Below are positions 17,492 to 18,719 of a stretch of 36,109 nt of DNA, one piece after another. The DNA is from Acidobacteriota bacterium (GTDB lineage Bacteria > Acidobacteriota > Thermoanaerobaculia > Multivoradales > JAHEKO01). Each line of letters opens with the position of its first letter. Positions within the stretch are counted from its first letter, which is position 1. A program made the translations under genes and the position numbers. The notes beneath the pieces were generated by a model. That model was not told the DNA's origin. It saw nothing but the letters and a program-made list of their open reading frames with translations, and made no database searches. The DNA is taken from NCBI GenBank assembly GCA_030597375.1, contig JAUVRX010000005.1:1-36109 (forward strand). Reading direction: 5' to 3'.

Positions 17492-18433
17492 CTAGACAAA
17501 CAATGAGCTCACGGAGCTGTTTTCATGAATTCGGCGAATGGCCTCCCCCAGAAGAGGCGCCACCGATAGCGGCTTCAGCTTGTCGCACCGGTTCAACTTC
17601 TCCTCGAGAGGCGTGGTGTCTGTGACGAGGACCATTTCCAGGGCAGACTCCTGGATTCTCTCCAGGGCAGGCCCTGAAAGGACGCCATGGATTCCGGCGG
17701 CCAGAATGCGATCGGCTCCGTTCTCCTCGAGAGCCTCCACCGTCGACTTCAGAGTGCCTGCCGTGTCGATGATGTCGTCGATCAGGAGGACATTGCGGTG
17801 CCTCACATCTCCGATGAGGTGCATGACCTTTGCCTGGTTCGGAGCGACGCGTCGCTTGTCCACAATGGCCAGGCCGGCATCGAGCCGCTTGGCAATGGCC
17901 CGCGCCCGTTCCACACCACCAGCATCCGGGGAAATGATCATCAAATCGGGGATATCCAGCTTGCGAATGGCCTTCAGGAGAACAGGAGCAGCGAAGAGAT
18001 GATCCACGGGAACGTCGAAGAAGCCCTGGATCTGCGCGGCGTGAAGATCCATGGTAAGGATCCGCTCGGCTCCGGCTGCCGAGATCAGATCGGCTACCAG
18101 CTTGGCCGTGATCGGTACCCTCGGCCTGTCCTTCTTGTCCTGCCGCGCATAGCCGTAATAGGGGATGACTGCCGTGACTCGGGAGGCGGAGGAGCGCTTC
18201 AGGGCGTCGAGCAGAATCAAGAGCTCCATGAGGTTCTCGTTCACCGGCGTGCAGACCGGCTGAATCACGAAGGCGTCCGAACCCCGGACATTCTCCTCGA
18301 TCTGACAGAAGATCTCACCGTCAGAGAAATTGAAGGCTTCCACCCGTCCGAGATCCAGCCCCAGATAGTCACAGATCTCCCGAACCAGGACGGGATGCGC
18401 TCGACCACCGAAGATCTTCAGCTCACCGTACAT
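17492..18433 (-). CDS. prs: Ribose-phosphate pyrophosphokinase
   Basis: Prs makes PRPP from ribose 5-phosphate and ATP for nucleotide, His, Trp and NAD synthesis. Visible motifs are FNFSDGEIFCQIEENVRG (ATP/flexible region), YGYARQDKKDRPR, the divalent-ion and substrate segment TMDLHAAQIQGFF, SPDAGGVERARAIAKRL, and the PRPP-binding loop VLLIDDIIDTAGTL. Starting at the ATG at 18433 gives 313 residues and the family-typical MYGELKIFGG. The track uses a GTG 15 nt upstream (18448, MGKSAMYG). I prefer the ATG because GTGGGGAAA is then a plausible Shine-Dalgarno. Its leader contains one arm of a perfect 18-bp inverted repeat whose other arm abuts tRNA-Gln. Confidence 0.96.
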   Translation of the reverse strand: MYGELKIFGGRAHPVLVREICDYLGLDLGRVEAFNFSDGEIFCQIEENVRGSDAFVIQPVCTPVNENLMELLILLDALKRSSASRVTAVIPYYGYARQDKKDRPRVPITAKLVADLISAAGAERILTMDLHAAQIQGFFDVPVDHLFAAPVLLKAIRKLDIPDLMIISPDAGGVERARAIAKRLDAGLAIVDKRRVAPNQAKVMHLIGDVRHRNVLLIDDIIDTAGTLKSTVEALEENGADRILAAGIHGVLSGPALERIQESALEMVLVTDTTPLEEKLNRCDKLKPLSVAPLLGEAIRRIHENSSVSSLFV

Positions 18434-18462
18434 CGCACTTTTCCCCACTTGGCAGTTGTCCT

Positions 18463-18641
18463 AGCCCGCATGATTCATGAGCCCCATGGCATCTGGCGGA
18501 GACCGCCCACCGCCTCAGGCCGTCCTCGCTCGTCACTCCTCAACAACCCGCAAGGTTGCCTCCGGTGCTCCTCCCTGCGAGTGACCCGATCTGACGGACG
18601 CTTTCCACAATCAACTCGCGCGGTCATGAATCATGCGGGCT
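18463..18641. repeat. 179-bp segment bounded by perfect 18-bp inverted repeats
   Basis: AGCCCGCATGATTCATGA (18463-18480) is repeated as its exact reverse complement at 18624-18641, with 143 bp between. Each arm contains CATGATTCATG, itself a 5-bp dyad around one base. Inside are GTCACTC/GAGTGAC (7 bp) and two small hairpins (GGCGG-AGA-CCGCC, AACC-CGCAA-GGTT). On the transcribed minus strand the segment begins 3 nt after the tRNA-Gln CCA and ends 29 nt before the prs ATG. I see no flanking target-site duplication and no ORF. It may be a small mobile element, a structured prs leader or a paired operator. Confidence 0.75.
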
Positions 18642-18644
18642 GGA

Positions 18645-18719
18645 TGGCTGGGGCGGTAGGAATCGAACCTACGATAGCCAGATCCAAAATCTGGTGCCTT
18701 ACCACTTGGCGACGCCCCA
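18645..18719 (-). tRNA. tRNA-Gln(UUG)
   Basis: The reverse strand folds as a complete cloverleaf. The acceptor stem is TGGGGCG/CGCCCCA and the discriminator is G with an encoded CCA. The D-arm is GCCAAGTGGTAAGGC, and the anticodon stem CCAGA/TCTGG carries loop TTTTGGA with anticodon TTG. The T-arm contains GTAGGTTCGATTCCTAC. The anticodon reads CAA, so it is glutamine. The tRNA lies between spoVG and prs, all on the minus strand; tRNA-Gln also precedes prs in Pseudomonas. Confidence 0.97.

Follow-up and report, generated by a model that had tools for sequence, protein, structure and literature searches.

The DNA between the tRNA-Gln and prs genes of an Acidobacteriota bacterium raises the question of whether it serves the expression of prs or is there for reasons of its own. 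The locus lies in a window of 36,109 nt, by which we mean the whole stretch of DNA that was analysed (GenBank assembly GCA_030597375.1, contig JAUVRX010000005.1). Two perfect inverted repeats bound a segment there, and three explanations had been offered for it: a MITE-like element, a structured leader of prs, or a pair of operator sites. We conclude with high confidence that the segment is a non-coding MITE of 175 bp inserted before prs, of the IS1380 type and presumably mobilised in trans. It is an ordinary mobile-element insertion of a MITE class already known, and recognising it as such removes a misleading clue to a new riboregulator of prs.

The Inverted Repeats and the Extent of the Element

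The arms of the inverted repeat are 18 nt each (18463-18480 and 18624-18641; sequence AGCCCGCATGATTCATGA and its complement). They are complementary over 100% of their length and enclose a gap of 143 nt, exactly as the original prediction had described them. The segment lies between tRNA-Gln and prs, both on the minus strand, and its near arm is 28 nt from the prs ATG (18432-18434, minus strand). At up to three mismatches, the 18-mer was found at 68 places in the 3.0-Mb genome of the window versus none for the reversed control. The arms are therefore not the product of chance, and the earlier statement that such a match is not expected by chance holds.

The arms had also been taken as the bounds of a 179-bp segment. 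Their pairing is indeed perfect, but the element is smaller than they suggest. Each arm consists of a 16-bp terminal repeat, CCCGCATGATTCATGA, and two additional bp (outer AG/CT) that make up one half of the CTAG target, which is duplicated. The features of the locus are collected in Table 1.

Table 1. Features of the MITE between tRNA-Gln and prs, with positions in the window.
Feature	Position	Strand	Evidence
MITE body, 175 bp	18465..18639	- (orientation of prs and tRNA-Gln)	7 other near-full copies, 89-95% identity; absent in two congeners
Left terminal inverted repeat, CCCGCATGATTCATGA	18465..18480	+	Same 16-mer ends other copies
Right terminal inverted repeat, exact complement of left	18624..18639	-	Repeat comparison among copies
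Target-site duplication CTAG	18461..18464	.	Empty site has CTAG once in G001, TTAG once in G002
Target-site duplication CTGG, one substitution from CTAG	18640..18643	.	Flank comparison
Central stem-loop of element	18542..18560	-	Compensatory changes among copies (alignment columns 80-99)
tRNA-Gln (TTG), upstream neighbour, outside element	18645..18719	-	
prs (ribose-phosphate pyrophosphokinase), downstream neighbour, outside element	17492..18434	-	

Copies in the Genome and in Relatives

A BLAST search with the segment against its own genome (3.01 Mb, 323 contigs) gave 36 matches, and eight of these are near-full copies, the one in the window included (Table 1). The copies have mutually unrelated flanks and occur in both orientations, and many fragments accompany them. 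Several stop at contig ends, as repeats usually do in draft assemblies. Many genomic copies had been named beforehand as the sign of a mobile element, and the number of matches, near-full copies and arm occurrences is the outcome so described. The genome-wide recurrence of the arms is explained by the element. Its family is multicopy in this genome and is carried by relatives of the same bacterial family: among the 40 genomes searched (own genome and 39 relatives), nine had a match at E <= 0.001. These are the window's genome, its two congeners, five further members of the family, of which one gave a weak match, and one genome outside the family with a marginal match.

Other forms of the element were found alongside the near-full copies. 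Three loci retain both ends at a length of only about 57-102 bp (L050:10-111, L054:573-663, and L056:595-651), and these internally deleted copies suggest a series of deletion derivatives. At L042 (end of contig C87), L052 (start of C5), and L055 (start of C304) an extra block starting with CAGTGGGCTGTCATGCCTACACGG lies between the same ends. L042 and L052/L055 suggest a longer variant of the element, a form that is visible only across contig ends. Solo 19-bp palindromes, CCCGCATTATTCATGCGGG, were found at four places exactly and at 12 places when up to two mismatches were allowed, while the control gave none. They look like two terminal repeats that have fused, with the entire interior gone. 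The loci concerned (L281-L292, e.g., C1:618-636, C5:95446-95464, C116:527-545, and C172:10056-10074) have YTAR-like flanks in many cases.

Empty Sites and Target Duplication

The order of tRNA-Gln and prs is conserved in most of the relatives examined. The spacer between them measures 210 nt in the window versus 32 nt in the congener G001 and 33 nt in the congener G002, whose prs proteins are 90-91% identical to that of the window. The element is absent upstream of prs in both congeners and from the other prs spacers examined. When CCATCTAGAACAGCC of G001 is aligned with the window, which reads CCATCCAG, element, CTAGGACAACTGCC, the insertion point falls at CTAG. The plus-strand duplications on the two sides of the window copy differ by one mutation (Table 1). 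A cleaner empty site is found for the copy at L004, where both congeners are uninterrupted (GGTTTAGGAT, with a single TTAG) and the filled site is flanked by TTAG and CTAG. For further copies the orthologous sequence of the congeners is contiguous and the exact joint is blurred by divergence. These comparisons show that the segment was inserted at CTAG in a short tRNA-Gln-prs spacer, uninterrupted in the sequenced congeners, and that its 4-bp target was duplicated.

The flanks were then compared over 88 distinct paired-end elements from the own genome, its relatives and public genomes. Identical 4-bp flanks were found in 45 of the 88 (2000 shuffles: mean 31.3, maximum 43), a figure to be read with the fact that many of these loci were found through a pattern that fixes YTAR on one side, for which the shuffle corrects only in part. 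In none of the 88 does the identity of the flanks extend to 5 bp or beyond, and the adjacent outward 4-mers never match. The commonest flanks are CTAG, CTAA, TTAG, and TTAA (YTAR), with CTAG the most frequent. Of 18 oriented copies, 16 have G directly 3' of the right-hand YTAR, and the next position favours A. By this preference to the right of YTAR, the target may be asymmetric (YTARGA).

Ends Shared With the IS1380 Family

The MITEs of the window's genus end in CCCGCATTATTCATGA, CCCGCATGATTCATGA or close variants. The 16-mer at the copy ends has T or G at position 8, and its T form also ends insertion sequences of the IS1380 type. CCCGCATTATTCATGA borders IS1380 genes at L251 of Nitrospira, where it follows CTAG, and at L255 of Krumholzibacteriia, where it follows TTAA. 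That Nitrospira genome, which has PF13701, also carries a MITE with CCCGCATTATTCATGA-type ends (L195). The genome G016, from the same family as the window, has an intact IS1380-family gene (L117:1474-2859, minus strand; NF033539, 365 bits) that is bordered by CTAG and CCTGCATTATTCATGA on one side and by CTAA and CCTGGAAAATTCATAA on the other. Three MITEs of G016 were aligned; two have CCTGCATTATTCATGA at both ends and the third at one. As in type I MITEs, the ends are thus those of a full insertion sequence, represented by L251 and L255, and by L117 for the G016 variant. In the matching insertion sequences the second terminal repeat is less exact than the first. An IS1380 remnant is found in the congener G001, and at the same place in G087, the genome of locus L144. 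Three other loci were rejected as IS1380 or autonomous copies: at L225 the end that lies near an IS1380 fragment points away from it, while at L192 and L130 the ends are 1.8-2.3 kb apart and the protein comparison found no IS1380 gene there.

Beyond the terminal 16-18 bp, the interior of the element does not clearly resemble the IS1380 copies with which it was compared. For the other mark of type I, a transposase in the same genome, the draft assembly of the window's genome (G000; 323 contigs, 92% complete) was searched with PF13701 (IS1380 transposase), and there was no match. The mobiliser is therefore one that we infer, and the source of transposase is lost, unassembled, or outside the genome. 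The link of the element to IS1380-type transposition is well supported but indirect. An IS1380-family transposase would recognise CCCGCATTATTCATGA-type ends and YTAR targets and would move the element in trans, into sites such as the CTAG before prs.

The same ends are also found far from the window's lineage. When public genomes were scanned for YTARCCCGCATKATTCATGA, at least 117 stretches were found, and those among the matches listed are mostly from Nitrospira, with other phyla represented too. Many of the stretches among the matches listed have paired ends 130-380 bp apart; unpaired single matches within a phylum are possibly due to chance. By their interiors, the matches listed fall into a largest group of 51 (mostly Nitrospira), the window's group of 20, a smaller group of 4 that combines Mariprofundaceae with a single other locus, and other groups besides. 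Identical ends around unrelated interiors are what a shared transposase predicts. Short repeats of Nitrospira, Acidobacteriota, and other phyla are in this way tied to one transposase family by their ends and target site.

Fold of the Element and Alternative Readings

The RNA of the segment on the prs strand was predicted to fold at -96.8 kcal/mol (z -4.2). In a fold of one hairpin over 18 copies, 97.9% of the cells are paired across 60 pairs. Changes on both sides were found in 17 of the 60 pairs, which 0 of 500 shuffles reached, though these covariation figures are inflated by the relatedness of the copies. The central stem-loop is an example of compensation, with GCAACC/GGTTGT versus GCATAC/GTATGT. 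The covariance check proposed for the locus thus found significant covariation but is uninformative on prs, since the copies lie at unrelated loci and the fold belongs to the element. Either selection acting on the element or arm-to-arm correction in the palindrome could maintain the fold.

The tRNA-Gln and prs genes are likely co-transcribed, given the short distance between them in the congeners (32-33 nt). Scans for promoters and terminators gave no match in the region. The insertion puts a long hairpin between the two genes. This hairpin is intrinsic to the element and would be present in any read-through transcript from tRNA-Gln to prs, and if prs were affected at all, this would be incidental to the insertion. 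A broader proposal is that CCCGCATTATTCATGA ends drive an undescribed MITE group with unrelated interiors in several phyla, that the fold is under selection in the window's lineage, and that certain copies, the one before prs among them, were co-opted as hairpins for RNA processing or the tuning of expression. Taken as a whole, we consider this proposal improbable.

Less probable still is a repeat of the REP/BIME type, a class of palindromes that owe their spread to a RAYT (Y1) transposase. The element is palindromic and some of the 19-bp palindromes stand alone, which agrees with it, whereas the duplication of a 4-bp YTAR target on both sides, the 16-bp ends common to DDE-type IS1380 elements and a full-length unit nearly constant at 175 bp argue against it. 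In the two large REP superfamilies one end of the repeat is tagged with GTAG or CGTC (PMC3733652), a pattern that the flanks of the element do not resemble.

It was also suggested that the 18-bp stem closes a metabolite-sensing RNA in a structured 5' leader of prs and so controls PRPP synthesis. The RNA does fold well, and its pairs are preserved by compensatory changes across the copies. A palindromic element, however, folds well at any location, and the same fold is found in copies beside unrelated sequence. An Rfam comparison of the segment matched no family. The conservation upstream of orthologous prs that a leader would have was not seen in G001, G002, or the other prs spacers examined, and the arms are wholly missing before the closely similar prs of the congeners. 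The leader reading fails on this absence, which had been named beforehand as its refutation, and on a fold that copies at unrelated sites share, and we regard it as very improbable.

The chance is just as slight that the arms are two operator sites whose CATGATTCATG dyads bind a regulator of prs or tRNA-Gln, for although each arm has a near-perfect dyad and isolated CCCGCATTATTCATGCGGG palindromes lie elsewhere, the sites travel with the element and the YTAR that flanks it, the 16-mer is missing at the prs of the congeners, and IS1380-type insertion sequences end in this very 16-mer, so that CATGATTCATG belongs to the transposon end and an operator is unnecessary.

Relation to Known Elements

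The piggyBac transposon has a 4-bp TTAA target and ends that begin with CCC. TTAA is one YTAR variant of the element studied here, which differs in being bacterial and in having a YTAR target with CTAG the commonest. IS1380 transposases have been used as an outgroup for piggyBac (PMC10813416). The IS1380 family itself (PF13701; NF033539) has the same 16-bp terminal repeat and YTAR flanks as the element, which differs in carrying no transposase and no clear interior in common with the insertion sequences compared. A 5-bp duplication is listed for the IS1380 member IS1247 (PMC3281130), in contrast to the 4 bp of the element.

The MITE-like option of the original prediction is borne out: copies are numerous, target sites are duplicated, relatives have empty sites, and an IS family has matching ends. 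The element falls within the MITE size range (about 30-300 bp without a transposase gene), with 175 bp, a length that could not encode a transposase, and no transposase ORF. Its terminal inverted repeats are 16 bp long and perfect in the window copy, multiple dispersed copies lie in its own genome, and both target-site duplications and empty sites were found. MITEs that have the ends of full transposable elements, fold into hairpins and duplicate their targets are well known, with the TA dinucleotide described as their usual target (PMC4133298). Type I MITEs such as TIMEs and Correia elements (CREE) are likewise short and non-coding, with terminal inverted repeats, target duplication, ends common to a full transposable element and strong hairpin potential, which in TIMEs is about -70 to -115 kcal/mol (PMC4133298), versus -96.8 in the element. 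TIMEs are of Tn3 type and duplicate 5-6 bp, whereas the element has IS1380-type ends and a 4-bp YTAR duplication. No description of IS1380-derived MITEs was found in the open-access literature searched, the coverage of which is incomplete, and a text search of papers for the terminal-repeat sequence gave no match. Elsewhere in the window, an RNase P RNA of bacterial class A was identified at 2292-2705 on the minus strand (278 bits).
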